Shown here in pieces: positions 29,958 to 57,188 of a stretch of DNA of 64,000 nucleotides. A model generated the notes under the pieces. It was given only the letters and a program-made list of their open reading frames with translations. It was not told the DNA's origin and made no database searches. The stretch is taken from the NCBI RefSeq assembly GCF_002005145.1, contig NZ_CP019698.1:1302001-1366000 (forward strand), written 5' to 3'. Origin of the DNA: Desulforamulus ferrireducens. Lineage in GTDB: Bacteria; Bacillota; Desulfotomaculia; Desulfotomaculales; Desulfotomaculaceae. Positions within the stretch are counted from its first letter, which is position 1. Each line of letters starts with the position of its first letter. The position numbers were made by a program, and so were the translations under genes.

Positions 29958-29974
29958 AAGATATGTAGATACAC

Positions 29975-30011
29975 AAAAAGGAAGTGTCGCTTTGCGATAC
30001 TTCCCTTTTTT
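29975..30011 (+). terminator. Intrinsic terminator after the SKG-repeat gene
   Basis: GGAAGTGTCGC/GCGATACTTCC (one G-T pair) flanked by A5 and T6; TGTCGC family. Confidence 0.88.
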
Positions 30012-30086
30012 GCCATTAGCCGTGCTCACAAAAAGAAAATGTAGCTAGCTAACATAGTAGCCATTGCTACACTTTCTATTAACTGG

Positions 30087-30638: not shown

Positions 30639-30889
30639 ATAAAATCTCCCTCCTATAAAAATTCCCAAGTACTACAAAATGTAGCCTTATTGGTATCTAT
30701 CACATGATATGGATTTATTTAGCAGACTGTTACATGGGTAAACTGTATTTTTAAAGAAATAAACTAGGTTATGTTTGGTAATACAGTAAATATTTACCAA
30801 TTAAATATACAACCATAATCTGTAACCGCTAGATAATCACCCCACATATGCTATTTTATACCAATATTTAAATAGAAAGGGTGGTTAGA

Positions 30890-37688: not shown

Positions 37689-38942
37689 TTGAATATTGTG
37701 GATATGAATAAAGTAATTTTGTACCAAGATAATTTACGGTTAGTTCTAGGGAAGGGGGTCTTTGGCCTGAAAATTCTAATAGGCAGTCCGGTCCGGCAAA
37801 AGCCGCTTATATTAAAAGAGTTTTTACTTTCTCTGGAGGAATTAGATAAGGGCAATCTTCATGTGGATTATTTCTTTATTGATGATAATGTAATTGAAGA
37901 ATCCTCTGAGCTTTTAAATAGTTTTGCCCGGGAAAATTCGAAATCTTTGGTAACAATTATTCAAGATCTGAAAACTAATGATGAATATCTTTGCAATGAG
38001 GAAACCCATCATTGGAATGAAAAGCTGGTTTGGAAAGTTGCCGATTTTAAAAATATAATTATTGAGCATGCTCTGAAGAATAATTACGATTACCTTTTTT
38101 TAATTGATTCGGATATCGTATTACATCCTAAAACGTTGCAAAAATTACTGGAAGCTCAAAAGGATATCATCTCCAATATATTTTGGACTAGATTTGATGG
38201 CAATTTACAACTGGAACTTCCCCAGGTCTGGTTGCGTGATGCCTTTGATCAAATTCCTCGGGAAAGGGGAGAAGAATTAACTGAAGAAGAAAAGTCCCTG
38301 CGCTGGGGACAATTCCTACAGCAATTACGACAGCCGGGCATCTATGAAGTAGGGGGATTAGGGGCATGTACCTTAATCAGCCACAGGGCTTTAGCAAAGG
38401 GCGTTAATTTTAGTCCCATCAGTAACATTTCTTTTTGGGGAGAGGATAGACATTTTTGTATTCGAGCTGCTGTGTTAGGATTATCCCTTTATGTAGATAC
38501 TCATTATCCTGCTTATCACATCTATAGAGAATCTGATCTGGCTGGTTTAGCAGATTACAAGAATAAAAATAAAGAACCTGCCAATCTAGTGCAACTGGTG
38601 AAAAAAGCTGTAGAAGAACTGGGAAGTTTCCATTATCAGCAACCACAGTCAGCAAACTGGCAATCCTTTTGTACGGCCAGGCTGCAAGGACAGCTCTTAG
38701 CTATTGTAAAAAGGAAACAGCAAAAATTAGCGGAACAAAAGCAAATTATAAAAGTTACAGTCACAGATTGTGTTGAAGAAGAAGACAACAATCAAAAAAG
38801 GGTTAGCTTCACCATGATTAAAAATAGCCTGCGGGATGGTCTGAGAACCTTTGAACAACTGGAGAGTTTTGTTATTGTGCTCCCCGATGAAAAAAATAAT
38901 TGGCTGATTGATCAATTGGTGGTGGAGGACATATTGGAATAA
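37689..38942 (+). CDS. Glycosyltransferase (Anp1/GT2-like) with extra C-terminal domain
   Basis: Up to 417 aa. The GT-A domain begins KILIGSPVRQKPLILKEFL and includes YFFIDDN and the DXD motif YLFLIDSDIVLHP near residue 137. A GGLGACTLISHRAL and FWGEDRHFCIRA acceptor-side region follows near 224-252, typical of Anp1-type transferases. The last 110 residues are a separate unassigned domain. The start is uncertain: TTG 37689 has no clear signal, while GGAAGGGGG lies 8 bp before a CTG at 37767 that would give the family-like N-terminus M-KILIGSP. It probably starts the glycosylation island and is followed by a methyltransferase gene 24 bp later. Confidence 0.75.
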   Translation: MNIVDMNKVILYQDNLRLVLGKGVFGLKILIGSPVRQKPLILKEFLLSLEELDKGNLHVDYFFIDDNVIEESSELLNSFARENSKSLVTIIQDLKTNDEYLCNEETHHWNEKLVWKVADFKNIIIEHALKNNYDYLFLIDSDIVLHPKTLQKLLEAQKDIISNIFWTRFDGNLQLELPQVWLRDAFDQIPRERGEELTEEEKSLRWGQFLQQLRQPGIYEVGGLGACTLISHRALAKGVNFSPISNISFWGEDRHFCIRAAVLGLSLYVDTHYPAYHIYRESDLAGLADYKNKNKEPANLVQLVKKAVEELGSFHYQQPQSANWQSFCTARLQGQLLAIVKRKQQKLAEQKQIIKVTVTDCVEEEDNNQKRVSFTMIKNSLRDGLRTFEQLESFVIVLPDEKNNWLIDQLVVEDILE

Positions 38943-39972: not shown

Positions 39973-42645
39973 CTAATTAGCAACTGATGGTAAGGCCAGC
40001 TCCATCAGACTGCTTTCCGGTGTTTGACAAAATTTATGCAGCCACGTTTCGGTAAGGATTAGCTGAACCGGTTTTACCTCCTCTGCTATTGCATCCTCCG
40101 CCATCACAAAATCCGGACTGGCAAGCTCCTCCTCTTGCCAATCAATCCATTGTATCCTACCAAAACTCAGGTCTGGCTTGGTTGGCAAATCCTTCACCTG
40201 TAGATAAACCAAGTGACCTCGAGATAATAATGTAGTAATCAGGTAACCGATTTTACTATTTTCATCAGGTATGTTTTTCAGATAGATTTTTACCAACGGG
40301 GGATTGGCTGCTATTCTTGGGGTATCACCTTGCTCCTTTGCCCTCTGCTGAATAAGCTTAGTCCATTCTGCCACCCAATGGGTTTTAGGAAAAGCCTCGG
40401 CAACCATGCGGGCATGTTTTTTTAAAGTTGACAGTGTTTCCTGATTATGCAATAGATACCTTATTGCTTGCAGCAATGCTGTGGCATTAGGCTCAATTCT
40501 TAAACCATTAAAGCGATCAATTACTAAATCAGTCAAGCCCCCAACTCTCGTGGCGATGACAGCGTTGCCGCAGGCCATTGCTTCTAAGCAAGATAAACTG
40601 GTACCTTCGGAATAAAGTGTAGGTATTAAAGAAATATCCGCACCCTTGTAGGCAGAGGGCATTTCTTCCGGTGGCAGGGAATACCATTTAACCCTACCCG
40701 GCCATTTTTTCTCCTTTTTAATAACATGTTTGGTGTCTTGCTCAAAGCCTTTTCCCACAAAGTGAAATTCAACCTGGGGAAATTGACCTAAAATATCATC
40801 TACTATCTCCAGTACCATATACAGTCCTCTGGCTTCATAAAGCCGACGAGGATAAAGTATGACAATTTTATCGCCAATTTGTTCAAAATTTTCCCGCGGA
40901 GAAAAGGTTTCTAAGTCAACATAATTTGAGATGACTTTAATTTTTTGCCCCAGTTCATAGTCTATGGTTTGGAACCAATTAGCAGTATTGGTATCAACAG
41001 ATATTAATTGTTCACAAATTTTTGCTCCCATAAGATAGCGACTATTGTGACTTGCAAACTGGTTGATGTATTGCATTTTATAAAAAGGATTATCCCAAGA
41101 AACACCGTGGCTAATACCTATGTTGGGAGTAGCTCCCAGTGGGTGGGCTTGATAAAAGGCAGAGTAAATATTTAAGAGAGACCTTTCCTGAACTTGTTCA
41201 TAAAATTGTCGATTAAACCTCTGACTGGCATCTGTTGAACTGGTGGTAAGAGAACCCCTGGCTAAGGATATCACATCGATATTACGAAAACGCCGAACCC
41301 AAGGGAAATTTCCATATTGGTAGATACTCATGACATAACCCAGCTGGGAGCAGACATCTGCTAAATCTAACAAATATCTTTCTGCTCCTCCAGAGTAGAA
41401 TTCCTTCCCCTCAAAATTAAAGAAGGTTTCTGTCATAACATTTATTTTTCCCCGCACATCAATATTGCTAAATAATGTCCAACCCTTGGGATTTGTTTTG
41501 ACTACGGAAGTAAAGGCATCAACAGGGGAAGTCCCTTGATTATTTATTTGATTTGATAGATTAATAGCGTCTGCCCTGGCCGCTACATACTTTTTCAATT
41601 GATTGCCTGAGTAGCTAACAAAATCAGCCTCTTTTAAGATAGCATTATGTTTTTCTAACATTTGACGATCATAACGTGAGGATAGCTCTAAGGGTTCTAC
41701 AACATCATACCAAAGGAATTTATGGGGCAGCAGGTCAGCCCAGGACATCTGCAAGACATCGGTACAAAGAACTGCTAGGGATTGACTCCTTAAGATAGGT
41801 AATAGGTATTCTGGTTTATTGAGCATAAAGAGGTTATTTGCTATTTCTTCTATTTTGAAATTATCCTTGGTTGACTTGCAGAAGAAACCCAAATATCCTC
41901 TTTCAGTTAATGCTTGGAGAAACTGTTTTGGCCTTTGGAGCGGTTTGGCATCTTCGTCCTCTGTGTAAACTACGATACCCTGATAATTTTTATTATTAAT
42001 CATGCCAAGTATCTCTAAGGATTCTGCTGTTAAAGGATTGCTCAGAAAAGAGCTATAGTACTTTTGCTTAGCCGCATACACTGCTTGAAATGTGTCATCT
42101 GATAAAGCAGGCGATGACTTTTCAACAACCAGACGAAGAAATGGCTGTCTGTCAGGAAAATCACTGTGCTGGCTAAAGAATGACACCAAGGAATTTTCAT
42201 ATTCATTTAAACTGCGGATCTCTAAATTCCAAGTGGATTTGTTCACCAATTTTTTAATGATTGGTGAAATGTCCCACTCTACTGTACTATTCATTTGATC
42301 TTCAATTAAAACACTGGCAACGAGACCTTCTTTGATGGGGGGGTGATTGTTCCAGGTTACTGTTCCTTGTTCCCAGTTCCCATCCACGGAAAAAACACCA
42401 TATTCTTTGGCATAATTGGGGTAAGCGTTGATATTGATAGTTAAGACAAGTGTTGCCAGCCAAATCTGACTGTTAGCAATATGTTCAGGTAGTTCGAATC
42501 TCAGAAAGGTTCTATATAGGCTGCCATGATGGGATAGTCCTACCCGTAAATCATCTACTTGATCAAAGCTTTGATTGGGCATTGCTTTGTCTATAAATGT
42601 ACTTTGTACTCCCGAGATCCAATGTACTTGGACCATCTCTGACAT
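39973..42645 (-). CDS. DNRLRE-like domain fused to family 4 glycosyltransferase
   Basis: An 890-aa protein. Residues 5-175 form a DNRLRE-like beta domain: paired strands, the motif WEQGTVTWNNHPP near 91-103, WDISPIIKKLV near 124, FFSQHSDFPDRQPFLRLVVE near 156-175. A 250-residue linker includes a receiver- or nucleotide-binding-like part. A GT-B glycosyltransferase follows: EFYSGGAERYLLDLADV near 420, VILYPRRLYEARGLYMVLEI near 617, and the C-terminal donor site EGTSLSCLEAMACGNAVIAT near 713-732. GGGGGT before ATG 42645 decides the start. Carrying the same module as the collagen-like protein two genes away suggests co-localisation with its acceptor. Confidence 0.82.
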   Translation of the reverse strand: MSEMVQVHWISGVQSTFIDKAMPNQSFDQVDDLRVGLSHHGSLYRTFLRFELPEHIANSQIWLATLVLTININAYPNYAKEYGVFSVDGNWEQGTVTWNNHPPIKEGLVASVLIEDQMNSTVEWDISPIIKKLVNKSTWNLEIRSLNEYENSLVSFFSQHSDFPDRQPFLRLVVEKSSPALSDDTFQAVYAAKQKYYSSFLSNPLTAESLEILGMINNKNYQGIVVYTEDEDAKPLQRPKQFLQALTERGYLGFFCKSTKDNFKIEEIANNLFMLNKPEYLLPILRSQSLAVLCTDVLQMSWADLLPHKFLWYDVVEPLELSSRYDRQMLEKHNAILKEADFVSYSGNQLKKYVAARADAINLSNQINNQGTSPVDAFTSVVKTNPKGWTLFSNIDVRGKINVMTETFFNFEGKEFYSGGAERYLLDLADVCSQLGYVMSIYQYGNFPWVRRFRNIDVISLARGSLTTSSTDASQRFNRQFYEQVQERSLLNIYSAFYQAHPLGATPNIGISHGVSWDNPFYKMQYINQFASHNSRYLMGAKICEQLISVDTNTANWFQTIDYELGQKIKVISNYVDLETFSPRENFEQIGDKIVILYPRRLYEARGLYMVLEIVDDILGQFPQVEFHFVGKGFEQDTKHVIKKEKKWPGRVKWYSLPPEEMPSAYKGADISLIPTLYSEGTSLSCLEAMACGNAVIATRVGGLTDLVIDRFNGLRIEPNATALLQAIRYLLHNQETLSTLKKHARMVAEAFPKTHWVAEWTKLIQQRAKEQGDTPRIAANPPLVKIYLKNIPDENSKIGYLITTLLSRGHLVYLQVKDLPTKPDLSFGRIQWIDWQEEELASPDFVMAEDAIAEEVKPVQLILTETWLHKFCQTPESSLMELALPSVAN

Positions 42646-42831
42646 TACTTTACCCCCTATCATTTGAGGCAGGTTAGATTATTTAGTAGTTTTTTCATAA
42701 AAATATTCCGGGTCTTTGGTATACATACGATGAAAAAATTGCCATTTGACCGAACATATCTCCAACTAAGAAAGTAATTATTTTTAAACACATATATTAG
42801 ATTATATGGGCTGTAAAGAGGTGAATTCAGG

Positions 42832-45144
42832 GTGATTCGTGGTAAGGAAATAATGGACCAGATCGATTTAGAGATAGGTAAGCTAACTAATCAACAAACT
42901 AAGTTAACCCTTCTTTTTGTCCTAGATAGATTGGAAATTGTGGGTGGACTGGAAACACACCTATATCATCTCTGCCGGGAGCTGAGGCAGCGAGGTCATA
43001 AAATTATTGTTGATTGCGCCAGTATAAGTACTACTTTGCAGGAGCTATTTTCCTTTGTAGAAATATATCAAGGTAAGACAGTGGCAGAAATGGGGGAGAT
43101 CATTCGCACAAATGAGGTAGATCTGATACATTGTCAACCGTTCCACTCTGCCGAAAGGGCACTGGTGTTACACGAGCAAACCAAGGTGCCATTTGTCCTT
43201 ACCTGGCATGGCGCCTATTATATGGATAACTTTCCTCAAATAGCGCAGAAATTGGAAAAAGTAATTTGCGTCAGCGAAGAGGTTTATGACCTCCTGTTAG
43301 AAAAATATCCTCTGGTGCAACCCAAATTAGTTATTATTCAAAACGGTATCGATTTAAATGAGTTTGCATTTATGGCACCGCAGCAAGAAACGAAGGAGAT
43401 CACATTTATTGGGCGAGACTGTGCAGATCGTTTGGTAGGGCTTAAGTATCTGATAGAAAGTGTTTCCATGACTTCCTTCCAGAAAATTAACATAGTTGGC
43501 TTTAAAAGCAGACCAGAACTACAGCCGGATCACTTATGTAATTTTGTTGGCGAGGTTACAGATGTAAAAAAATATATCCAGCGGGCAGATGTTGTGGTGG
43601 CAACGGGAAGGGGAGTCAGAGAAGCCATTGCCTGTGGCAAACCATGTATTGTCTTGAGCCATTGGGGGTATGATGGCATTTTATGTCCGAGCACATTTAA
43701 GATATTAGAGTATGCCAATTTTAGCGGTCGAGGTTTGGCTGAGCCCCTGGCCAGTGAGAGAATCCGGGATGATCTTAATCTACTGACATCCAGTGAATTA
43801 AGAGTTAAACTAGGTCTATATGGCCGGCGACTGGCAGAAAAATACTATGATATTAAAAAAATTGCCGATCAAACAGAAATAGTCTACCTGCAAGCAGTGA
43901 AAAACAGTAAATCACCAAAGGTTTCTATTCTGTTGCCGGTTTATAACCAGGCCAAGGTAGTTGGGCAGTGTCTCACCAGTTTATTAAACCAAACTTGCCA
44001 GGATTTTGAGATTATACTAATTGATGACGGTTCTACAGACTCACTGTCCCAGGTGGTTTCAGAGTTTCCAGATCAGAGAATACGTTATATCCGTAGGGAA
44101 AAACATAAAGGGCTACCCTGGACCCTTAACGAAGCACTTCGCTTAAGTCAGGGTAAATATATCACTTGGCTCTCGGCAGCTGATTTACCCCTTGCTAACT
44201 ATCTTGAAAAACTGCTGGAGGTCTTAGAAAGAGAGCCAGAGTGTGGTTCAGTTTACTCAGACTATCTGGAAATTGATGAAAAGGCTAACGTTATTCAAAA
44301 TATTAGTAAGGGATTATACCAATTAAATGGAGAAATCAGTTACGGGCCATCCTTTCTGTATCGAATTGAAGCAATGCAGCGAGCTGGTTTTTTTGATGAA
44401 AATTTAGCCGATGTCGCAGACAAGGATTACGCTATGCGGCTGGCCGCCACAGCACCGGTATTTTGGCTACCGGAGATCCTATATAAACATAGGATTCTTA
44501 ATAAGAAAAGCGATAATGAATTTGCCAATAAAGCCTTTTTCAAGAAATGGCAATGGCTTCGTCAATATCCACATTTAGAGGCTAAGCCAATGGCAAGGGA
44601 TAAGGTTATCTTTGGGGAAAAAGTGATCTTGCCAATAAATATGGATTGTACCGTGAACAGTACCATGAACAAAAATTTGAATTATGATGCCATACTGTTA
44701 GGAAATTTTAGATCTTCAATTTATCGCTGCTTTGTTCAGGTTGACATTAATTCTATCTTAACCGGCAGTCAAATTTTAAGGGCTGAATTCCAGTTTTTCT
44801 GCACCAGAAACGATAATAATTCGGTGCAAGAGATCACGGTTCATCAGGTAAAAGAACCTTGGGAGGAGAACACTGTTAGCTGGTTCAATATGCCTGAAAT
44901 TGAAAATGAACCTATAGCTGAGGCTCAAGTAGGTGAAATTTATAACTGGGTTAGCTTCGATATAACAGGCTTGGTACAAAGGTGGGCTGATGGCAACACA
45001 GCAAATTATGGTATCTGCTTAAGGATGAAGGATGAAGACAAGGCAGAAGTAGTAGCAGGTTTAAACCGTCATGGTGATAATCCCATAGCTTACCCTAGAT
45101 TAGTGGTTGAATACACTGGTAAGGACAGGTGTTTGACCTGTTAA
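42832..45144 (+). CDS. Tripartite GT4-GT2 glycosyltransferase with C-terminal DNRLRE-like domain
   Basis: A 770-aa protein. The N-terminal GT4 (about 25-360) has EIVGGLETHLYHLCREL and REAIACGKPCIVLSHWG. The central GT2 (about 362-590) has VSILLPVYNQAKVVGQCL, IILIDDGSTDSL and DXD-like SAADLPLANY. The C-terminal DNRLRE-like domain (about 600-765) contains WEENTVSWFNMPE near 677 and NPIAYPRLVVEY at its end. Such a protein could add two sugars. It is divergent from the N-terminal DNRLRE-GT4 gene and convergent with the collagen-like gene. Start may be GTG 42832 (AGAGGTG) or ATG 42853 (AAGGAAAT). Confidence 0.82.
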   Translation: MIRGKEIMDQIDLEIGKLTNQQTKLTLLFVLDRLEIVGGLETHLYHLCRELRQRGHKIIVDCASISTTLQELFSFVEIYQGKTVAEMGEIIRTNEVDLIHCQPFHSAERALVLHEQTKVPFVLTWHGAYYMDNFPQIAQKLEKVICVSEEVYDLLLEKYPLVQPKLVIIQNGIDLNEFAFMAPQQETKEITFIGRDCADRLVGLKYLIESVSMTSFQKINIVGFKSRPELQPDHLCNFVGEVTDVKKYIQRADVVVATGRGVREAIACGKPCIVLSHWGYDGILCPSTFKILEYANFSGRGLAEPLASERIRDDLNLLTSSELRVKLGLYGRRLAEKYYDIKKIADQTEIVYLQAVKNSKSPKVSILLPVYNQAKVVGQCLTSLLNQTCQDFEIILIDDGSTDSLSQVVSEFPDQRIRYIRREKHKGLPWTLNEALRLSQGKYITWLSAADLPLANYLEKLLEVLEREPECGSVYSDYLEIDEKANVIQNISKGLYQLNGEISYGPSFLYRIEAMQRAGFFDENLADVADKDYAMRLAATAPVFWLPEILYKHRILNKKSDNEFANKAFFKKWQWLRQYPHLEAKPMARDKVIFGEKVILPINMDCTVNSTMNKNLNYDAILLGNFRSSIYRCFVQVDINSILTGSQILRAEFQFFCTRNDNNSVQEITVHQVKEPWEENTVSWFNMPEIENEPIAEAQVGEIYNWVSFDITGLVQRWADGNTANYGICLRMKDEDKAEVVAGLNRHGDNPIAYPRLVVEYTGKDRCLTC

Positions 45145-45241
45145 TTTTACCAACGGACATTGGATTTTATGCTGGCCCAAATCCTGTATAGCAAGGTGAT
45201 AAATGAAAGGATTAATTACCTGAACTACTTAGAAAAGAATT

Positions 45242-45270
45242 ACGGCTGTCTATCAAGAATAGACAGCCGT
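45242..45270. terminator. Bidirectional terminator between the GT fusion and the collagen-like gene
   Basis: Perfect 12-bp stem ACGGCTGTCTAT/ATAGACAGCCGT, followed by an AT-rich tract on both sides. Confidence 0.85.
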
Positions 45271-45283
45271 AATATTTAGCCTG

Positions 45284-47513
<2,230 letters not shown>

Positions 47514-47599
47514 CCAAAATAATGGAATATGTTACATTTTTGGTAAAAAATCTTCATAAACGAAATAAGGTTTTACAAAAAATGTAGGGGGTTTTGTGC

Positions 47600-47890: not shown

Positions 47891-49150
47891 TTACAAAAGA
47901 CCAACCGGTTTGGAAAAACCCAGGTAATAATCTTTGATACTTTTAAAATAAGTTAAGCCCTTACCAAAAAGGACACCTTTAATTTGGTGATAAATGGCTT
48001 GATTTGCCGCAGTGCAGACAATCTCTCCGTCCTTTTTTAACAAACCAGCCAGTCTGCTAAATAACTCATCTATATTCTTTAGCTTGTTAGACTCGCTTTC
48101 CACAATAATATAATCATAGAGCCGGTCCCCAAAGTAGCTTAGTAAATTGTCGGTATCCGTATGGACGCAAAATTCACAGATGGTTTTAAGATCTGTCAAA
48201 TTTTGTTTTTGCTCGGAAAGATAATAGAGCTTAATATTCTTGCTGCCGTGTCTTTGACAGATGTTTTTGATTTGCAGTAGAGTAGCACCGTAAGACATGC
48301 CAATCCCTAAGATATTAATATTATCTTGACCTTTATAACTTAGGAGTTGTAAGACATTTTGATCTATAAAGGTGGCTTGCCACGAATAAACACCAAATTT
48401 TTTAAAAAATAAGATTTTGTTTTTTTGGAGCAGGTTGTTCTTGGCATATTCAGCTTTGAAGGTAATGGAGCCAAAGTGGTGAACAAAGGTATCCTTGGCT
48501 AAAATCAATTTATAACCTAATCTTCTGATAGTGAAACTAATGGCGTCATCATCGAAAGCCCCAGGGTTAAAATCCTCATCAAACCCGCCTAGCCTCTGTA
48601 GTAAGTCTGTCCGGAAGAGGCAGGTGTAGGTAACAAGCCTGAGACGTTCCTCCCAGAGCTGACTGTTGCTCACGTTATATTCTTTAGCCCGCTGTTGCAT
48701 TTCAGTCAGGGAGCTATATTTTAAAGTAATCTGCTGATAATTGGAGGTAGAGTTACATACGGGAACTACCATACCAATTTTTTCATCGGATTCCATACAG
48801 GTAAGCAAATTATCCAGCCAATTGTAAGTAACAACAATATCATTGCTTAAATTTAGGGTATATTTGCCTTGGGCCATTCTAATACCATAGTTAATGGCCT
48901 TACATACACCCATATTTTCAGGAAAGCTGATTTTTTTGGTGTTGGGTAGGCTGTTGAAATATTCTTCAGTACCATCCGTTGAACCATTATTAATGGTGAT
49001 TAATTCAAAATCGATATGCGAAGTGTATTGATAAAGACTTTCAATACATTGCTTAGTATAACTAAGGTGATTATAGGCAAGCACAATAATGGTGACAAGG
49101 GGTGAGTATGGTTCTTGGGTATGGGTTGGTGCTAACGGATTTTTCTCCAT
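47891..49150 (-). CDS. Family 2 glycosyltransferase with C-terminal methyltransferase-like domain
   Basis: A 419-aa protein. The GT2 domain (about 18-260) has TIIVLAYNHLSYTKQCIESL, ITINNGSTDGTEEYF, the DXD-like LNLSNDIVVTYNWLDNLL and FDEDFNPGAFDDDAISFTIR. The last 140 residues (INILGIGMSYGATLLQIKNI, DYIIVESESNKL, LLKKDGEIVCTA) look like a degenerate Rossmann methyltransferase. It is the last gene of the leftward sugar cluster. Acceptor unknown; the neighbouring collagen-like protein is a candidate. Confidence 0.8.
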   Translation of the reverse strand: MEKNPLAPTHTQEPYSPLVTIIVLAYNHLSYTKQCIESLYQYTSHIDFELITINNGSTDGTEEYFNSLPNTKKISFPENMGVCKAINYGIRMAQGKYTLNLSNDIVVTYNWLDNLLTCMESDEKIGMVVPVCNSTSNYQQITLKYSSLTEMQQRAKEYNVSNSQLWEERLRLVTYTCLFRTDLLQRLGGFDEDFNPGAFDDDAISFTIRRLGYKLILAKDTFVHHFGSITFKAEYAKNNLLQKNKILFFKKFGVYSWQATFIDQNVLQLLSYKGQDNINILGIGMSYGATLLQIKNICQRHGSKNIKLYYLSEQKQNLTDLKTICEFCVHTDTDNLLSYFGDRLYDYIIVESESNKLKNIDELFSRLAGLLKKDGEIVCTAANQAIYHQIKGVLFGKGLTYFKSIKDYYLGFSKPVGLL

Positions 49151-49183: not shown

Positions 49184-50503
49184 TCACCTTTGAGACATAA
49201 AAGTGTCTATGATATGAATGATATAATCAAGCTTTGCATCATCAATGCCAGGGAAAACACCGATGAAAAAGGTATTTTGCAGCACGTTTTCTGTCTGTTC
49301 CAGTGTGCCGGCGAGGCGGTACTTAATATTGCGGTAGGCGGGATGTTTTAAGATATTACCAGCAAACAGCATTCTGGTTTCAATTTGGTTTTTTTCTAAA
49401 AAGGTTACGATTTCTCTCCGTGAAAAAGGAGCCTGTTCCCTTACCGTCAGGGGCAGGGCAAACCAAGAAGGCTGCGCTTTAGGCAGCGATTTCGGAAGAA
49501 TGAAATATTCTTCATATTTTTTTAAAGCCTCATACAGTGCCTGGAAATTCTTTCGCCGCCTCTCCGTGAAGGAGGGGAGTTTTTTCAGTTGCTCAATGCC
49601 CATGGCGCATTGAATATCCAGAGGTTTTAAATTGTAACCAATATTGTTGTAAACATATTTGTGGTCATAGCCATAGGGCAGTTTTTCATATTTATGCTCA
49701 AAGCGACGACTGCAGGCGCCCTTGGGATTGGTTTCGCCAGTTTGACAATAACAGGCTCTACCCCAATCGCGGATGGATAAGCACTGTCTGTGTAAATTTA
49801 TATCGTTGGTGAGAACTGCTCCGCCTTCACCCATTGAGATATGATGGGCTGCGTAAAAGCTGTAGGTGGAAAGATCGCCAAAGGTGCCGCACAGCTTGCC
49901 GTCATACCGTGAATCAAGGGCATCGCAGGTATCCTCTACCACATATAGATTATGGCGCCTGGCCAAATCCATAATTACATCCATCTGGGCAGGGTTACCC
50001 AGGGTATGGGCAAGGACAATGGTTCGTGTTTTGTCAGATATTGCTTCTTCAAGCTTAGAGGCATCCAGGTTATAGGTGCCTTCTTCAACATCCACAAACA
50101 CGGGCAGCAAACCATTTTGTAAAATGGGATTGAGGGTGGTGGGGAAGGTCAGGGCAGTGGTTATTACCTCATCCCCAACTTTCAAGGGATGCTCTAAATT
50201 GGCTGAGCAAAGGGCGCTTACCGCAACCAGATTGGCAGAGGATCCCGAGTTAACCAGCACACCATATTTCATCCCCATCAACGAGAGAAATTTATCCATA
50301 AATTCCTTACCCTTTTCTCCCAGGGTAAGCCAAAAATCCAAGACACTATCTACCATGGCCTGCATTTCTTTTTCATCGTAGACCCTGCCGGCATAATGCA
50401 CTTTGCTTTTACCAGGCACAAAGCGCTGGTTATCCTTCCGCAGGGCATAAAATTGGGCCACTTTTTCCAGAATTTCTGCTCTTACTTGCTGTTCTAAATT
50501 CAT
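49184..50503 (-). CDS. rfbH: CDP-6-deoxy-4-keto-glucose 3-dehydrase (E1, RfbH/AscC type)
   Basis: A 439-aa PMP- and [2Fe-2S]-dependent dehydrase for C-3 deoxygenation in CDP-3,6-dideoxyhexose synthesis. The aminotransferase fold is clear, but the PLP lysine is replaced by His: SFYAAHHISMGEGG aligns with SFQGAKMTVSGEGG of the DegT gene next door. That Lys-to-His change defines E1. The Cys-rich CYCQTGETNPKGAC segment near 235 supplies cluster ligands. ATG 50503 follows GGAGGGAT; the frame opens 51 bp earlier. The E3 reductase partner is not in view. Confidence 0.9.
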   Translation of the reverse strand: MNLEQQVRAEILEKVAQFYALRKDNQRFVPGKSKVHYAGRVYDEKEMQAMVDSVLDFWLTLGEKGKEFMDKFLSLMGMKYGVLVNSGSSANLVAVSALCSANLEHPLKVGDEVITTALTFPTTLNPILQNGLLPVFVDVEEGTYNLDASKLEEAISDKTRTIVLAHTLGNPAQMDVIMDLARRHNLYVVEDTCDALDSRYDGKLCGTFGDLSTYSFYAAHHISMGEGGAVLTNDINLHRQCLSIRDWGRACYCQTGETNPKGACSRRFEHKYEKLPYGYDHKYVYNNIGYNLKPLDIQCAMGIEQLKKLPSFTERRRKNFQALYEALKKYEEYFILPKSLPKAQPSWFALPLTVREQAPFSRREIVTFLEKNQIETRMLFAGNILKHPAYRNIKYRLAGTLEQTENVLQNTFFIGVFPGIDDAKLDYIIHIIDTFMSQR

Positions 50504-50517
50504 CTTATCCCTCCGTA

Positions 50518-51627
50518 TTAAGAGTTGTGGAGGAGGTTGATTAGATTTTGGCAAACAAAATCAATGTCTGCTTCAGTTAGGTTGGCTGCTGAGGGAAGTG
50601 AGATTCCCCTTTGCTCCACACTCTTTGCCACCGGATTTTCAAATCTTTGATTAAACACAGGAAAAAGACTCATTCTAGGGAACCCCGGCCTGGCATGAAT
50701 GTTTAAATCCTTTAAGCGGGCCAGGATCTCATCTCTATTGGCTGTGATCGTTGAGTCGAGCAAAATGGAAGGGTAACAATAATTGCTTTTATAGCCTGGT
50801 TTTTCCTTGATGATTTTGATGCCCGCCACATCCTTTAAGCGTTGATAATAATAATCAAATAACTGCCTTTTCTTGGCCAGTAGTTCATCAACCCTTTCCA
50901 GTTGGGCCAGGGCCAGAGCGGCTGTTAAATTATTCATGGTGTATTGGAAGCCGAGCATATCCGACCAAAAAACCGCCTTGCTGTCAGTTCTGCCCATAGA
51001 TGCCAGCAGGCAAGCCTTCCGATAAATATTTTCATCGTTAGTAACCAGCATGCCACCTTCGCCGCTGACCGTCATTTTGGCCCCTTGAAAACTAAAGCAG
51101 GCAACATGACCAAAGCCACCCACAAGTTTTCCCTTATATGTGGCACCAATGGCGGGGGCAGCATCCTCAATGACAAACAAACCGTGTTCTGCAGCAATTT
51201 TTAGTATTTCATCCATGTCTGCGGGGTGCCCAAAGGTATGCACCAGCATAATGGCTTTAGTCTTGGGGGTAATGGCTTGCCGAATGCATTGGGGATCAAT
51301 AGTCCAGGTATCGGGATCAATGTCCACAAAAACACAGGTTGCCCCAGTGTAGGCCACGGCATAGGCTGTGGCTACCCAGCTAAAATCCGGGACAATTACT
51401 TCATCCCCTGGCCCTAGTTCCAAAGCTTCAGCGGCAAGATGCAGCGCCACTGTACAGCAATGGGTGGCCAGAGCGTATTTGACGCCGATATAGTCGGCGA
51501 AGGCCCTTTCCAGTCTTTTCGTGTATTGGTCATAATTTTCGTACCAGCCGTTCCTCACCGCATCCAGGACATAAGAAACCTCTTTATCGGTGATGGATGG
51601 TCCGGCAAAACTAATTCTTTTGTTCAT
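50518..51627 (-). CDS. DegT/DnrJ/EryC1-family sugar aminotransferase
   Basis: A 369-aa PLP aminotransferase that typically aminates a keto-sugar nucleotide. It has THCCTVALHLAAEAL near 56, DEVIVPDFSWVATAYAV near 76, VIEDAAPAIGATYKGK near 149 and PLP lysine motif CFSFQGAKMTVSGEGGMLVT near 178-197. ATG 51627 follows GGAAAGGTGG. It sits between the E1 dehydrase and a class I aminotransferase, so a 3- or 4-amino-deoxy sugar is a likely product or intermediate. Confidence 0.88.
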   Translation of the reverse strand: MNKRISFAGPSITDKEVSYVLDAVRNGWYENYDQYTKRLERAFADYIGVKYALATHCCTVALHLAAEALELGPGDEVIVPDFSWVATAYAVAYTGATCVFVDIDPDTWTIDPQCIRQAITPKTKAIMLVHTFGHPADMDEILKIAAEHGLFVIEDAAPAIGATYKGKLVGGFGHVACFSFQGAKMTVSGEGGMLVTNDENIYRKACLLASMGRTDSKAVFWSDMLGFQYTMNNLTAALALAQLERVDELLAKKRQLFDYYYQRLKDVAGIKIIKEKPGYKSNYCYPSILLDSTITANRDEILARLKDLNIHARPGFPRMSLFPVFNQRFENPVAKSVEQRGISLPSAANLTEADIDFVCQNLINLLHNS

Positions 51628-51654
51628 AATTTGCCACCTTTCCAAAACATAGGG

Positions 51655-52821
51655 CTAGATGAACCCTTTAATCCTTTGTAGCCTTGCACAGGCCTCATTC
51701 AGCACCTGATCCTCTTTGGCAAAGCAAAACCGCAGCAAGTTTTCTCCACCTTCCTGGTGATAAAAGGCACTTCCCGGTACGGCTGCTACACCGGTTTTAT
51801 TTAAAAGGTAGAGGGCCTTTTCTTTACTGTTAACACCGGGAATTCTACTGGCATCAGCTAAAACATAGTAGGCTCCCTGGGGTATATATGGCTGCAGAGA
51901 AGCTTCCTGGAGGGCTTCACACAAAACCTGCCGCTTTTTTTCATAGGCCGCCGAGAGGGAGAGATAAAAACTGTCCGGCAGAGACTGAATGGCCTTTGCT
52001 ACACCAGCCTGTAGGGGTGAGGGGGCACAGATATAGACCAAATCATGAGCGTAACCGATCTGTTGGGCTAATTCCTCCTGGCAGGCACAATAGCCGATTC
52101 TCCAGCCTGTAATGCTAAAGGTTTTGGAATAACCGGAGATGGTAATTACTCTGTCTCCAATGGTCGTCAGGGTACCGGGGCTGATATGGGAAAGTCCATC
52201 GTAAACGATATATTCATAAATCTCATCGGTAAAAAGAAAAAGGTGATGCCGTAGACAAATATCTGCCAATATCTCCAGTTCACGGCGCGAAAAAACCTTG
52301 CCCGAGGGATTGGCCGGAGTATTGATCAAGATGCCCTTGGTCTTTTTAGTAATGAGCTTTTCAACCTCATTGGCATCAAATTCCCAGCAGGGGGGGTTTA
52401 GTGTGGCATAGAGCGGTGTGATGCCCAAGGCTAGCAGGGTATATTGGTGATAGCCATAAAATGGTTCAAAAAGGACAACTTCATCACCGGGATTGAGTAA
52501 AGCTAAGCAGGCACAATAAAATGCTCCTGTTGAACCTGAAGTGACAATGATGTTTTTTAAAGGATCTGCCTGGATGTTGTTATAGCGCAGCAGTTTTTGG
52601 GAGATAGCTGCTCGCAGTTCGTCTAAGCCGTCATGTCGGGTATAATGATTCATGCCACTGTCCAGAGCATCTTTGGTTGCTGTGTTCAAGACAGGCGGCA
52701 GCGGCAAGTCGCAAATACCCTGTGACAAATTGATTCCGCCTACTTTTTCACACTCTATAGACATATTGCGTATTTCTGAGCCGGCCAAACTGCCAAGTCT
52801 ATTGCTGTATTTTCCCGCCAA
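51655..52821 (-). CDS. Class I/II pyridoxal-phosphate aminotransferase
   Basis: A 388-aa AspC-fold enzyme: INLSQGICDLPLPP near 30, VTSGSTGAFYCACLALLNPG near 95, NTPANPSGKVFS near 168, DEIYEYIVYD near 198, and the PLP-Lys motif SGYSKTFSITGWRIGY near 233. It is the kind that acts on amino acids, unusual inside a sugar cluster. Start is TTG 52821 after AAAGGAGG. It may supply an amino-acid substituent or an amino donor; this is inference. Confidence 0.82.
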   Translation of the reverse strand: MAGKYSNRLGSLAGSEIRNMSIECEKVGGINLSQGICDLPLPPVLNTATKDALDSGMNHYTRHDGLDELRAAISQKLLRYNNIQADPLKNIIVTSGSTGAFYCACLALLNPGDEVVLFEPFYGYHQYTLLALGITPLYATLNPPCWEFDANEVEKLITKKTKGILINTPANPSGKVFSRRELEILADICLRHHLFLFTDEIYEYIVYDGLSHISPGTLTTIGDRVITISGYSKTFSITGWRIGYCACQEELAQQIGYAHDLVYICAPSPLQAGVAKAIQSLPDSFYLSLSAAYEKKRQVLCEALQEASLQPYIPQGAYYVLADASRIPGVNSKEKALYLLNKTGVAAVPGSAFYHQEGGENLLRFCFAKEDQVLNEACARLQRIKGFI

Positions 52822-52839
52822 CAGGAGTCCTCCTTTCCA

Positions 52840-53484
52840 TTAAAACAAATGGGCATTTTGTTTTTTCCATTCTTTTACATTCAGTTGCATTTGTAGATAA
52901 TACTGGTTGGTGTCTGGGTTAACCGGGATATCCTTGAGCCTAACAAAGTTATTTCTACTGTAAAATTCAATGGCTCTTAGATTGTTGGCAAGCACACGTA
53001 GTAGGATTTGTTTCACTTTTAGTTCGGTAAGCCCCCAGTAGATCAGCGAATTCAGGGCAAAGGTCATCATGCCCGGATACCCGGTTTTGACGCCCCTTAA
53101 TACGGCATCAATCTCACAACTTTTTTTCTTAAAATCAAAGGAAGCAAGACCAATATGACCGACTTTAGTACCGTCATTGGCCATAATTAAAAATAAAATT
53201 CTGTCATTTCTGGCCAGGACAAGTTTGTTCAGCCAGTTTTCCGTGCTCTCGGCTGTAGCCACAAACTGCTCCGGAGACATGTGGGCATTTTCATTGCGCC
53301 ATCTGGCCAGTAATTCCGGGCAACCTGGCAGGGTTAGCTGGTAATTGTAAGTGATGGGTCTTAAATAACCAACAATAGTCATTTGAGAATCATAGATGGG
53401 AAGACACTGCAAGGGCGCCAGAGGATTTTTGCATTTAAATTTGTTTAACTTGTTGAGAACACGTTTTTGAAAACTATGCATCAT
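52840..53484 (-). CDS. GNAT-family N-acetyltransferase
   Basis: A 214-aa acyltransferase. RPITYNYQ...ELLARWRNEN near 60, VGHIGLASFDFKKKSCEID near 108, YPGMMTFALNSLIYWGLTEL near 134 and NNLRAIEFYSRNNFVRL near 168 mark a RimJ/L-like GNAT fold with acetyl-CoA site. It resembles transferases that N-acylate amino-sugar nucleotides, consistent with the two aminotransferases beside it. Confidence 0.8.
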   Translation of the reverse strand: MMHSFQKRVLNKLNKFKCKNPLAPLQCLPIYDSQMTIVGYLRPITYNYQLTLPGCPELLARWRNENAHMSPEQFVATAESTENWLNKLVLARNDRILFLIMANDGTKVGHIGLASFDFKKKSCEIDAVLRGVKTGYPGMMTFALNSLIYWGLTELKVKQILLRVLANNLRAIEFYSRNNFVRLKDIPVNPDTNQYYLQMQLNVKEWKKQNAHLF

Positions 53485-53502
53485 GAATACCCCCTGTTAT
53501 AA

Positions 53503-55251
53503 TCAGCTGTCCCAGGGTTTTACCAGCATATTACCGGCCAACTCCTCCCGGGGTAGCAGAGGGTCTTGATCCTCTATGGGGCGATTGATGGAGAGCTTTG
53601 GATAGACGTAGGTAGTTTGTGGCAGTTGAATTTCGATAAAGACCGGGTCAGCAGATGCCAAAAGTGGTTTTAGATTGCGCAAACCATGGATATCTTTGAC
53701 CTTTACCCCTTGAATGCCATAGGCCTCTGCAATTTTACAAAAATCAGGTGCTTCATAGTCCTTAATGGTTGCATAATATCTGCCTTCAAAGTACATCTCC
53801 TGAAAATGTCTGATCATACCGAGGCTATGGTTATTCATCACGATGACTTTGATGGGGAGGCGATTTCTTTTGAGCAGTGCCAGTTCCTGTATATTCATCT
53901 GCATTCCGCCATCTCCGGCGATGGCCAGCACCTTTCCCTGGTGCGGGTTCTGGTAGTAAGCTCCAATGGCCGCTGGCAGAGAGAAGCCCATGGCTCCCAT
54001 ACCGCCGGAGATCAGCAGGCGCTGGCCCTTGGTAAGTTGCATGGATTGAGCTGCCCACATCTGGTTTTGCCCGACGTCCAGGCAAATAACATCGTTTTCT
54101 GAAGTCATTTGGGAAATTTCCCACATAATAAAATTAGGGTCTGATATATCCTGAGTATGGAAGGAGGGGTACTTTTGTTGATAGTTCCGTGCCCGCTCCA
54201 GCCAGGAGTTGGCAAGGGATGGTTTAATAAAGGCTGGATTAATTTGCTCCATGTTTTCTAGGAGTGTGCTGAGGAAGTAACCGATGTCTGCCTGAATGAC
54301 CATTTCATCCTTTTTAATTTTTTTAGCTAACTCGTTGCTATCAATATCCACTCTCACCAGCTTAGCTTCCCGGGCAAAGCTGCTGGCCTTACCAGTCTGT
54401 CTTGAATCTAGTCGGGAACCCAGGGCAAGAATGAAATCACTGTTGGCAATGGTTAAATTGGCGTAACGGTTGCCGTAGGCGCCAATCATACCGAAGTAAT
54501 TGTCCTTTGTGTTATCATAGACATCGCGTCCCATCAGTGAACAAACGATGGGTATTTTTAACTGCTGGGCAAATTGCTGAAAAAGATCTTGGGCGCCGGC
54601 GAGCCGAACTCCGCCACCAACCAATATTACAGGACGCTTGGCGTTATTGAACAATTCCAGCAGGGGGCCAAGCCAGTCCTTTTTCATTTCCTCGGCTGGC
54701 TCTGGTTGATAGCCCACCAGTTCCTGCTCCTTGATGTCTGCCCGCTGCATATCCATGGGGAGATCCAGTAAAACAGGACCTTTCCTGCCAGAAGTGGCGA
54801 GGGAAATGGCCTTTTCCAACTCATATCTTATCCGCAGGGGATCAGTCAGCCGAACAGCATATTTGGTAATGGGCTTAACGATACTGACAATATCAGTTTC
54901 CTGGAAACCCAACTGTCGCACCGTCATGTCTCCCTTATATTCATAGGTGTTAACTTGCCCTGTCAGATAAAGGCAGGGAATGGAATCAAAATAAGCACTA
55001 CAGATACCAGTTATCAGGTTGGTGGCCCCCGGGCCACTGGTGGCAATGGCTACGCCGAGACCATTTTTTCTTCTGGCATAGCCTTCCGCTGCAAAGGCAG
55101 CACCCTGTTCGTGGTAGGTGCCAATAAATTGGATATCCTGCCTTTTGTAGAGGGAGTCAATGAGATGCATGATTGCTCCGCCTGGGTAACCAAAAACGTG
55201 TGTGCAGCCTTGGGCTGCTAAAAAACCAGCGATATAATCTGCTAATTTCAT
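53503..55251 (-). CDS. Thiamine-diphosphate-dependent enzyme, IlvB-like (YerE-like candidate)
   Basis: A 582-aa ThDP enzyme with the acetolactate-synthase domain order: Pyr domain (YHEQGAAFAAEGYAR with catalytic Glu near 50), central domain, PP domain with GDGGMQMNIQELALLKRNRL near 446. It lies among CDP-sugar genes without ilvC, ilvN or leu genes. ThDP enzymes of this class in CDP-sugar loci (YerE of yersiniose synthesis) add an acetyl unit from pyruvate to a 3,6-dideoxy-4-keto sugar; that role fits E1 next to it. ATG 55251 follows GGTAGGAGGAG. Plain acetolactate synthase remains possible. Confidence 0.75.
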   Translation of the reverse strand: MKLADYIAGFLAAQGCTHVFGYPGGAIMHLIDSLYKRQDIQFIGTYHEQGAAFAAEGYARRKNGLGVAIATSGPGATNLITGICSAYFDSIPCLYLTGQVNTYEYKGDMTVRQLGFQETDIVSIVKPITKYAVRLTDPLRIRYELEKAISLATSGRKGPVLLDLPMDMQRADIKEQELVGYQPEPAEEMKKDWLGPLLELFNNAKRPVILVGGGVRLAGAQDLFQQFAQQLKIPIVCSLMGRDVYDNTKDNYFGMIGAYGNRYANLTIANSDFILALGSRLDSRQTGKASSFAREAKLVRVDIDSNELAKKIKKDEMVIQADIGYFLSTLLENMEQINPAFIKPSLANSWLERARNYQQKYPSFHTQDISDPNFIMWEISQMTSENDVICLDVGQNQMWAAQSMQLTKGQRLLISGGMGAMGFSLPAAIGAYYQNPHQGKVLAIAGDGGMQMNIQELALLKRNRLPIKVIVMNNHSLGMIRHFQEMYFEGRYYATIKDYEAPDFCKIAEAYGIQGVKVKDIHGLRNLKPLLASADPVFIEIQLPQTTYVYPKLSINRPIEDQDPLLPREELAGNMLVKPWDS

Positions 55252-55268
55252 CGGATGGCTCTCTCCTC

Positions 55269-56357
55269 CTACCTTAATAACCGGCAATAATCGGCTATTT
55301 GTTCCCGGCATAGCTGGTAGACATCCTGCTGGGTATAGTTTTTATACCATGCTAAGGTATAGGCTAGGGCTGTATCTAAATCCAGACGGGGTCTCCAACC
55401 CAAGATAGTTTTAGCCTTGGTGCAGTCCAAACTTAAGAGAACAGCTTCATGTAAAGATTCTTGAGGGGAGCAATCCACCCATGAACCGCTGCCCCAAAGG
55501 GCAACTACCCTGTCTACCACTGTTTTTACCGTCGCCACAGAATCAAAATCCGGCCCAAAATTCCAGGCGCCGCTATATTTTGCTCCCTCCTTAAACATTT
55601 TGGCGGCCAATAGCAGATAGCCGTAAAGAGGCTCCAACACATGCTGCCAGGGACGAACAGCCTGGGGATTTCTGACTTCAATGGGCTTTTGTGCCTGGAG
55701 AGCTCTGATACAATCAGGCAGCAGTCTGTAGTCAGACCAATCGCCGCCGCCAATGACATTGCCTGCCCGCACGGAAGCCAGGAATTTTCCCGAGCCTGAA
55801 TTGAAGTAGGACCTGCCATAGGAGGACGTAACAATTTCCGCGCAGGCCTTGCTGGCACTATAGGGATCATAGCCCCCTAAGGGATCATTTTCTCTGTAAC
55901 CCCAAATTTGTTCTTTATTCTCATAGCATTTATCCGAGGTGATGATCACACCTATTTTGGCCGTGACGGAGTCTCTAATATTTTCCAAGACGTGGACAGT
56001 ACCCATCACATTGGTGGCAAAGGTTAGTTCAGGCATTTTGTAAGAATGACGGACAATTGGTTGAGCTGCCAAATGAAAAACAATTTCCGGCTGGTAGGTG
56101 GTAAAAACCGTCTTTAATTTTTTTGTATCAAGGACATCGCCACGGATATCAATGATTTTGTTGTGCAGCCCGGTTAGCAGAAAATTATCCTGGTCAGTAA
56201 CCGGATCCAGTGCATAGCCGATAACATTAGCACCCAGCAAATGAAGCCAGAGGGAGAGCCAGGAACCTTTAAAGCCGGTATGGCCGGTTACCAGTACCCT
56301 TCTGCCTTGATAGATACCGTCAAACAATTGAGAAAAATTTATTCCCACAATTTCCAT
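55269..56357 (-). CDS. rfbG: CDP-glucose 4,6-dehydratase
   Basis: A 362-aa extended SDR enzyme making CDP-4-keto-6-deoxyglucose. NAD-binding VTGHTGFKGSWLSLWL near 24-39 (the HTGFKG form is typical of RfbG), the Ser/Thr-YxxxK catalytic set TSDKCY and YDPYSASKACAE near 155-170, and RAGNVIGGGDWS near 200. ATG 56357 follows GGAGAAGC; the start overlaps the end of rfbF by 19 bp. Confidence 0.93.
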   Translation of the reverse strand: MEIVGINFSQLFDGIYQGRRVLVTGHTGFKGSWLSLWLHLLGANVIGYALDPVTDQDNFLLTGLHNKIIDIRGDVLDTKKLKTVFTTYQPEIVFHLAAQPIVRHSYKMPELTFATNVMGTVHVLENIRDSVTAKIGVIITSDKCYENKEQIWGYRENDPLGGYDPYSASKACAEIVTSSYGRSYFNSGSGKFLASVRAGNVIGGGDWSDYRLLPDCIRALQAQKPIEVRNPQAVRPWQHVLEPLYGYLLLAAKMFKEGAKYSGAWNFGPDFDSVATVKTVVDRVVALWGSGSWVDCSPQESLHEAVLLSLDCTKAKTILGWRPRLDLDTALAYTLAWYKNYTQQDVYQLCREQIADYCRLLR

Positions 56358-57109
56358 GGTGCTTCTCCTGTCCGCCAAAGTCTATTTACTCTTTCCACGT
56401 CTTTGTAGGTGTCCACAGCCGTCCAAAATCCGTTGTGTGTGTAGACTGCCAGCTGTCCGTCTGTGGCTAGCCTATGCAGGGGCTCCTGCTCAAAGGCACA
56501 ATCCTCATCGGGTATATAATCAAATACCTTGCGATTTAAGACCATAAAGCCGCCATTGATGATATCATTCAAGACGGGTTTTTCTTTAAATGTAATGGCG
56601 AGGTTATCTTTTGTTTCAATGACTCCAAAGGGTGAGGTGGGGTTAACTCCCGTCAGGGTGGCTAGCTTACCTGTTCGCTGATGATGGGCGCACAATTGTT
56701 TAATATTGACATCACTTAGTCCATCGCCGTAGGTGAGCATAAAGTTTTCATCATCGATATATTTTTTAATTTGCTTGATGCGTCCGCCGGTGAGTGTCTC
56801 GGGTCCGGTATCTACAATGGTCACGTTCCAATTTTCTTTAATTTTGGTATGATATTGTATTTGGGCATGGGGATCTGTTTTGACAGTGAAATCATTATTT
56901 CGCCAGCACATTTCCATGAAATAGCGTTTTATCATGTCACCCTTATAGCCCACGCACAAAATAAAGTCATTAAAACCGTAGTAGGAATATATTTTCATAA
57001 TATGCCAAACAAGGGGGTGATCACCCACTTCAACCAAGGGTTTGGGGCGGAATTCTGTTTCCTCCCGCATCCGTGTTCCTTTGCCGCCACATAGAATAAC
57101 TGTTTTCAT
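56339..57109 (-). CDS. rfbF: Glucose-1-phosphate cytidylyltransferase
   Basis: A 256-aa nucleotidyltransferase converting CTP and glucose-1-phosphate to CDP-glucose, the first step of the CDP-deoxyhexose route. Signature VILCGGKGTRMREETEFRPKP at the N-terminus, GDGLSDVNI near 131, and GGFMVLNRKVFDYI near 190. Its length is normal (RfbF about 257). ATG 57109 follows AAGGAGG. It is the first gene of the leftward CDP-sugar operon. Confidence 0.95.
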   Translation of the reverse strand: MKTVILCGGKGTRMREETEFRPKPLVEVGDHPLVWHIMKIYSYYGFNDFILCVGYKGDMIKRYFMEMCWRNNDFTVKTDPHAQIQYHTKIKENWNVTIVDTGPETLTGGRIKQIKKYIDDENFMLTYGDGLSDVNIKQLCAHHQRTGKLATLTGVNPTSPFGVIETKDNLAITFKEKPVLNDIINGGFMVLNRKVFDYIPDEDCAFEQEPLHRLATDGQLAVYTHNGFWTAVDTYKDVERVNRLWRTGEAPWKLWE

Positions 57110-57188
57110 AGTAACAGGAACCTCCTTGAGATCATTTTGCATTATATGTCAGTTAATGAATATTTGTTACAAGGCAAAGGATTTGCAA

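Follow-up and report, generated by a model that had tools for sequence, protein, structure and literature searches.

How might a spore-forming bacterium confine the glycosylation of a surface collagen to the surface on which that collagen lies? The question is raised by a stretch of the Desulforamulus ferrireducens chromosome (contig NZ_CP019698.1, positions 1,302,001 to 1,366,000; these 64,000 nucleotides as a whole are called the window), in which two glycosyltransferase (GT) genes and the gene of a BclA-like collagen protein carry a module of the same CBM96/DNRLRE family. Although the module is a common one, its presence on both enzymes and on the collagen points to a possible means of retaining the enzymes at the spore surface that they would decorate. 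We tentatively favour, with a probability of roughly 0.4, a glycan-mediated co-localisation in which the modules would bind a spore-surface sugar, so that enzymes and collagen would meet on the glycan and not tag to tag. It would represent a candidate route, in sulfate reducers not known as pathogens, for restricting spore-collagen glycosylation to the right surface, the substrate and both enzymes bearing modules of a single family.

One module family on two glycosyltransferases and a spore-type collagen

The three genes and their parts are the following.

39973-42663, minus strand: DNRLRE-GT4 fusion gene, with the module at the N terminus, then half a GT-B lobe, a whole GT4 domain and a tail
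42118-42630, minus strand: CBM96/DNRLRE module of the DNRLRE-GT4 gene (residues 12-182)
42832-45144, plus strand: GT4-GT2-DNRLRE fusion gene, from profile matches
44617-45120, plus strand: CBM96/DNRLRE module of the GT4-GT2 gene (residues 596-763)
45284-47437, minus strand: DNRLRE-collagen-BclA_C gene (BclA-like), from profile matches
45290-45634, minus strand: BclA_C domain (PF18573, 89.4 bits, cut-off 38)
45686-46918, minus strand: collagen-type repeats (70 GPT and 65 GDT triplets of 137)
46919-47434, minus strand: CBM96/DNRLRE module of the collagen gene, from profiles, a structural model and a fold search

All three proteins matched both Pfam PF24517 (CBM96; cut-off 26 bits) and NCBIfam NF033679 (DNRLRE; cut-off 34 bits) above the curated cut-offs. 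The matches covered residues 20-178 of the DNRLRE-GT4 protein (57.7 and 72.8 bits, respectively), 605-759 of the GT4-GT2-DNRLRE protein (52.3 and 83.7 bits) and 16-182 of the collagen protein, as numbered from a TTG at 47476 (69.9 and 109.6 bits). A preliminary description of this DNA had proposed that the three genes carry the same kind of module, N-terminal on the GT4, C-terminal on the GT4-GT2 fusion and N-terminal on the collagen protein; the two profile families confirmed the first point and the domain coordinates the second. The DNRLRE-GT4 gene possibly starts at an ATG at 42645, while the collagen gene likely starts at a TTG at 47437, its D. aeronauticus counterpart beginning with MPTISLVPIG.

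The collagen repeats matched PF01391 with 205 bits and, together with the BclA_C domain, place the protein among the BclA-like spore collagens. It begins directly with the module, and no signal peptide was seen by eye. In its collagen repeats, its BclA_C domain (as defined in Pfam) and the lack of an evident signal peptide it resembles Bacillus BclA; however, BclA has a short N-terminal leader, whereas the Desulforamulus protein has an N-terminal DNRLRE module. A GT gene adjoining a spore-type collagen gene is also the arrangement of Clostridioides difficile SgtA, which is encoded just upstream of bclA3 and, according to the available portion of its description, adds N-acetylglucosamine to collagen-repeat threonines (PMC7157674). 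Similarly, the GPT and GDT repeats found here offer acceptor threonines. The two systems differ in that both Desulforamulus GTs and the collagen carry CBM96/DNRLRE modules, whereas the available portion of that paper mentions no shared domain, and in that a pathway for a cytidine diphosphate (CDP)-dideoxysugar adjoins the Desulforamulus locus. GT genes beside spore collagen genes are thus known. Among the papers listed in searches of the open-access literature, we found no report of DNRLRE/CBM96-GT fusions or of a module common to an acceptor and its transferases; no account of N-terminal anchoring modules of clostridial collagens turned up either, in searches not aimed at such modules.

The whole 3.24-Mb genome contained four DNRLRE matches (NF033679). 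Three of them sit inside these 7.5 kb, so their clustering is not due to chance. The fourth is a 289-aa DNRLRE-DUF6385 protein, 1.26 Mb distant, which adjoins TPR-GT2 genes and an Anp1-like GT of the same kind as the gene at 37689 of the window.

Conservation, kinship and distribution of the modules

We compared nine genomes of the genus, comprising the source genome (G000) and eight others, G006 being D. aeronauticus DSM 10349. Both fusion genes were present in three of them (G000, G002 and G006), always adjacent and always with a DNRLRE-collagen gene, and the remaining six carried neither the fusions nor a DNRLRE-collagen. Each of these six presented a single DNRLRE match, located on a DNRLRE-DUF6385 protein (G008 was only 72% complete), and in one of them, G005, a collagen-like gene lacking the module was present (L187, 1521-3011). 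The collagen gene of G002 is cut by the contig edge, and what is left of it opens with the end of a DNRLRE module; the D. aeronauticus gene has collagen repeats and gave no BclA_C match. The fusion proteins of the sister genomes were 67-70% identical to those of the source genome. The ratio of nonsynonymous to synonymous substitution rates (dN/dS) was 0.10-0.20 for the modules and 0.09-0.26 for the catalytic parts, although synonymous sites approached saturation wherever the window was one of the sequences compared. Purifying selection acts on the modules.

This distribution (fusions in 3/3 genus genomes with a DNRLRE-collagen and in 0/6 without, G005 included) speaks for the explanation advanced in the preliminary description, namely a docking or sorting tag. 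In such a case a single protein of the coat or exosporium would be the partner of all three modules, or the modules would bind one another, and the dedicated enzymes and their acceptor would be placed in one layer. The presence of one module family on enzymes and acceptor also favours it, as does the N-terminal module of spore collagens in several families, which mirrors the role of the N-terminal domain of BclA. In addition, the expression TWNNxP, which is biased because it was drawn from the trio, matched 20 of the 22 GT and collagen modules versus 29 of the 84 others among 106 DNRLRE domains. However, the modules were not specially alike. When the same 106 domains were ranked by score, the collagen module of the window took rank 8 against the GT4 module and rank 19 against the GT4-GT2 module, while from the collagen module the two GT modules ranked 55th and 44th, and the nearest rows of the GT modules outside the genus were on DUF6385 or other proteins. 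Judged by their sequences, none of the three modules has its closest relative within the trio and a close-knit common tag is not apparent, while a looser kinship may exist. Their nearest folds are sugar-binding modules, as described below, and the deep tree relations do not settle their kinship. What stands of the proposal is the single domain family, the triple kept in three of the nine genus genomes, the occurrence of fusions only alongside a DNRLRE-collagen, the module at the very start of a collagen protein with no evident signal peptide, the frequent GT neighbours of DNRLRE-collagens outside the genus and the setting in a spore-coat and glycan island; what does not is a special tag common to the three, and we consider this explanation unlikely.

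A recent duplication inside the locus was also considered and was not supported. In a tree of the 106 domains, whose bootstrap was not settled, the collagen module fell into a supported clade (100/95) of 14 collagen rows plus one other, from several families, and the two GT modules lay apart on separate, weakly placed long branches. In a quick tree reduced to 65 rows by manual removal of 41 mostly long or near-duplicate ones, the star of support fell on the two genus rows only and not on the collagen clade. Approximately unbiased tests on the 65 rows did not reject a joint origin, either of the GT modules with the collagen modules of the genus (p 0.176) or of the two GT lineages (p 0.737), and holding the two GT lineages together gave a tree better by 12.1 log units.

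DNRLRE genes were also surveyed beyond the genus. Of the 113 order genomes, 21 carried the module (the class comprises the same 113 genomes and the same 21), as did 90 of 398 genomes of a phylum draw and 38 of 63 genomes of another class. The neighbourhoods classed were those of the listed order and phylum matches, in frames of 380-2000 aa plus some smaller ones, frames above 2000 aa being mostly left out and those below 380 aa partly. The classification profiles were built from the loci themselves, and the GT profiles were seeded from this locus, so that unlike GTs could be missed. Among the 112 DNRLRE proteins classed, there were 6 GT fusions (all from this genus), 17 collagens, 21 DUF6385 proteins and 68 others. 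A GT gene lay within 6 kb of 12/17 DNRLRE-collagen and 16/21 DNRLRE-DUF6385 genes versus 5/68 other DNRLRE genes (Fisher p 2e-7 and 2e-9, respectively, both overstated owing to related loci, the choice of frame sizes and the self-made profiles). Cruder earlier profiles had given 13/18, 10/10 and 10/78, respectively. Collagen-like proteins with the module at their N terminus also occur in other families, and six of the eight families with a DNRLRE-collagen showed a nearby GT at least once (hand count). The 28 of 38 collagen and DUF6385 genes near GTs suggest a role for DNRLRE on both kinds of protein across the phylum.

Fusions of the module to GTs, in contrast, were found only in the three genus genomes. 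None turned up elsewhere, whether in the matches listed for the order (113 genomes), in those listed for the phylum with frames of 380-2000 aa (where L142 was not recognised by our own DNRLRE profile), or in 12 more stretches, comprising ten from the 63-genome class of G367 (nine with frames above 400 aa and a weak match in G172), one from G273 and one filler. Thus, a module beside GTs is general, while a module fused to GTs was seen only in this genus. The proposed tie between the fusions and collagen-like genes holds in so far as all six lie within 6 kb of one, but they come from a single genus and a single locus and so represent one evolutionary event, not a survey result. Spo0A was tried as a test for sporulation and was not discriminating, since it was present in 75 of 78 DNRLRE genomes across collagen, DUF6385 and other architectures; the source genome carries it too.

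The survey also bears on the possibility that there is no special link, in which DNRLRE would be a widespread surface module that the two GTs gained for a polysaccharide of their own, the collagen being a neighbour from a shared spore-surface locus. The breadth of the family agrees with this, most of the classed proteins having other architectures (68/112), as do the single evolutionary event behind the three genomes and the scores outside the genus, where the GT modules were nearest to modules of DUF6385 or other proteins and not of collagens. This possibility sits less well with the gathering of three of the four genomic modules within 7.5 kb, kept together in three genomes, and with the enrichment of GTs near DNRLRE-collagens in other families, and we likewise regard it as unlikely.

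A surface glycan as the candidate meeting point

The structure of the collagen module was predicted and compared with solved structures. Its best matches were 8wab (Z 15.7, root-mean-square deviation (rmsd) 3.4, 162 residues aligned), a chondroitin-sulfate-binding module of a chondroitinase according to its Protein Data Bank (PDB) title, and 7vbo (Z 13.3, rmsd 2.8, 154 aligned), the alginate-binding module of the alginate lyase Dp0100 and, according to the available portion of its description, the founding CBM96 (PMC9971899); the next matches after the CBM96-type modules were propeptides of the TGF-beta family. The ligands described for both solved bacterial modules are acidic polysaccharides. 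The CBM96 beta-sandwich fold was thus found, in a predicted model, for the collagen module only; a model of the full DNRLRE-GT4 protein was discarded (mean predicted local distance difference test (pLDDT) score 43, predicted template modelling score 0.32).

The modules share with the solved ones the profile match, the TWNN-P signature and, for the collagen module, the predicted fold; unlike the solved modules, which belong to glycan-cutting lyases, those described here are found on GTs and a spore-type collagen. The WxE..TWNNxP motif is a signature of the CBM96 family and is also present in the solved alginate- and chondroitin-binding modules (WSETDLTWNNSP and WSEKSITWNNRP). The surrounding FFSxxSDFPD pattern was recovered in two of the three proteins and not in the remaining fusion, which reads GLNRHGDNPIAYP. 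At these places D. aeronauticus reads FFSRHCDLPD and FRSSDYSDS, so the pattern is not kept and the close likeness is partly coincidence.

Since the fold belongs to a family of carbohydrate-binding modules, sugar binding appears at least as likely as protein docking for the three modules. We prefer the glycan-mediated explanation because the solved family members bind sugar, because the modules are divergent and because of their wider association with glycan-making genes. The spore-coat and CDP-sugar genes of the locus, the purifying selection on the modules and the C. difficile SgtA precedent also speak for it. Module divergence would fit different glycan epitopes better than one self-recognising tag, and GTs near DNRLRE-collagen and DNRLRE-DUF6385 genes would be expected if the module reads the glycan that those enzymes make. 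In such a scheme, the genes of the locus would be expressed in the mother cell late in sporulation, and the N-terminal module of the collagen protein would bring it onto the surface of the forespore. There, the enzymes would decorate threonines of the GPT/GDT repeats, and the glycan built on the collagen may end in an unusual CDP-derived sugar. The modules would bind acidic or modified polysaccharide, as characterised CBM96 modules do, with that of the collagen anchoring the protein to the glycan coat and those of the GTs holding the enzymes on their growing product or acceptor. Enzymes and substrate would thus be joined by a common surface glycan, with no self-recognising tag.

Several observations weigh against this explanation. 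The alginate contacts of the founding CBM96 are Lys10, 22, 25, 27, 31, Arg36 and Tyr159 according to the available portion of PMC9971899, and in a hand-read alignment none of these seven residues was seen kept in the three modules, Lys31 lying in an unsurely aligned loop; Lys25 was replaced by Arg in the GT4 module only, and Arg36 by Tyr in all three. Because these contacts are not kept, the ligand is probably not alginate and may be other than a glycan. The model of the collagen module had a mean pLDDT of only 66.6, with residues 1-28, 30-40, 148-158 and 177-182 below 50. The TWNNxP enrichment speaks for some likeness between GT and collagen modules. The GT-proximity counts rest on our own profiles and on non-independent loci, and 5 of the 17 DNRLRE-collagen genes had no GT within 6 kb. 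Three of these were plain exceptions (L044, L122 and L118, the last with a GT2 neighbour under the earlier profiles); L124 is close to the end of its contig, and between L043_8 and a GT gene stands a second collagen gene, 6.4 kb long. Finally, module-free relatives of the GT4 protein exist in a Syntrophomonadaceae metagenome-assembled genome (L173, 47% identity), where the gene lies beside an Anp1-like GT, and in Paenibacillus sp. J2TS4 (L174, 8117-12691; 55% identity), which shows that this enzyme type does not need the module. From these sequences, the module may either have been added in Desulforamulus or been lost in the relatives.

The relatives and the catalytic domains also bear on a structural explanation, in which the fusion proteins would be spore-surface components with degenerate catalytic parts, held by the module, and other GTs would modify the collagen. 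CotSA-type GT4 proteins sit in the Bacillus subtilis coat. GT2 enzymes carry a D-x-D motif, and at that place, near residues 446-452, the GT2 part of the fusion has SAAD, with SADN in the sister genomes (by eye), so that the domain may be inactive or have another metal site. Moreover, in an alignment the extra GT-B unit reads as full in the Paenibacillus protein, while the Desulforamulus GT4 and L173 proteins keep only its first lobe, before the full GT4. Degeneration is difficult to reconcile with the main GT4 domain, where E-x7-E (E680-E688, A5 numbering) was invariant in five of five sequences and where dN/dS versus the window, 0.09-0.11, was the lowest of the DNRLRE-GT4 protein. We consider this structural explanation improbable. 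A search for phage relatives of the GT4-GT2 protein gave 89 records, none with 80% coverage.

A broader scheme can also be proposed, about which we are more doubtful. Modules of one family on enzymes and acceptor would read the same surface, be it a glycan or a coat protein, confining glycan building to the growing spore nap. Across the phylum, DNRLRE would then serve spore surfaces in general, and transferases fused to it would reinforce their own action by writing where already written.

As a separate observation, the D. aeronauticus collagen module (C43; L037, 7068-8810) gave a phmmer match (E 3e-4) to PDB 8jfo, the anti-CRISPR AcrIIA15, a hint that the module fold may also serve intracellular protein binding.

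A putative spore-surface glycan island

The three genes are flanked by the following features.

27814-28905, minus strand: CotH spore-coat kinase (PF08757, 312.5 bits)
29100-29957, plus strand: Gly/Ser/Lys-repeat (KGSKGSHGS) protein, similar in composition to a CotG-like CotH substrate, scored by Pfam as collagen
30087-30668, minus strand: SPOCS/SipL-domain spore protein, with a homologue beside the fusion cluster in G002 (L039)
37689-38942, plus strand: Anp1-like/GT2-like GT, kept by the fusions in G002 and by the module-free GT4 relative in L173
38967-39914, plus strand: S-adenosylmethionine-dependent methyltransferase, kept in G002
47505-47532, minus strand: AC-N17-AATATTGTA, a sigma-K-like promoter match to the generally known consensus, lying upstream of the collagen gene
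47891-49150, minus strand: GT2 glycosyltransferase, from a profile match
49184-50554, minus strand: RfbH, CDP-4-keto-6-deoxyglucose 3-dehydratase type (617 bits, cut-off 423)
50518-51645, minus strand: DegT-type aminotransferase (best model LegC family, 306.8 bits, below the cut-off of 420)
51655-52821, minus strand: class I aminotransferase, models below their cut-offs
52840-53484, minus strand: PseH-like GNAT acyltransferase (weak match, 35.8 bits, cut-off 93.1)
53503-55311, minus strand: thiamine diphosphate (ThDP)-dependent enzyme, acetolactate-synthase type (503.1 bits, below the equivalog cut-off of 538.35)
55269-56378, minus strand: CDP-glucose 4,6-dehydratase (486 bits, cut-off 278)
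56339-57142, minus strand: glucose-1-phosphate cytidylyltransferase (328.8 bits, cut-off 300)
57236-60989, minus strand: three TPR-GT2 glycosyltransferase genes, with an additional weak match to a methyltransferase domain in the last

The locus has the appearance of a spore-surface glycan island, since it combines CotH, a CotG-like protein and a SPOCS protein with many GTs and with a pathway for a CDP-3,6-dideoxysugar. RfbF, RfbG and RfbH make CDP-4-keto-3,6-dideoxyhexose, and we guess that the genes at 49184-57142 specify an unusual, perhaps branched, aminated or acylated CDP-dideoxysugar. Homologues of the RfbH, ThDP enzyme, dehydratase and cytidylyltransferase genes were found at the Pfam level in the same order in D. 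aeronauticus, and the ThDP gene in two of the nine genus genomes at E 1e-120. A literature search on YerE-like branching of a CDP sugar gave nothing useful and the ThDP enzyme scored below the acetolactate-synthase equivalog cut-off, so the branching of the sugar stays a guess.

The sigma-K-like match before the collagen gene presented the same spacing in D. aeronauticus. The pattern matched 11 times in the window, on both strands, and lay within 160 bases upstream of 2 of the 13 locus genes (the collagen gene and 59439-60989) and before neither fusion gene; it would thus be a weak sign of sporulation expression of the collagen gene.

The CotH, KGSKGSHGS-repeat and SPOCS genes stand about 9-12 kb before the three-gene locus, and the latter two also adjoin the fusion cluster in G002. 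The divergent CotH and Gly/Ser/Lys-repeat genes, with SPOCS/SipL next to them (27814-30668), are perhaps a clostridial cotH-cotG pair. They resemble the CotH-CotG phosphorylation module of B. subtilis, as given in the available portion of PMC7821199, in that a CotH kinase gene is divergent to a Ser-rich repeat gene in the same window; they differ in the distance of the pair from the three-gene locus and in that the repeat protein is CotG-like by composition only.

No paper on DUF6385 was found in the open-access literature searched. A second conserved glycan cluster was observed in the source genome (L034, 9566-18314, within C1:2602000-2621000) and in L042, L046-L049, L055 and L056. It holds a DNRLRE-DUF6385 protein, an Anp1-like GT and TPR-GT2 genes, and several of these loci carry another protein beginning MPNFKIFQDNPDYARIK, which has a DUF6385 end in the source genome.

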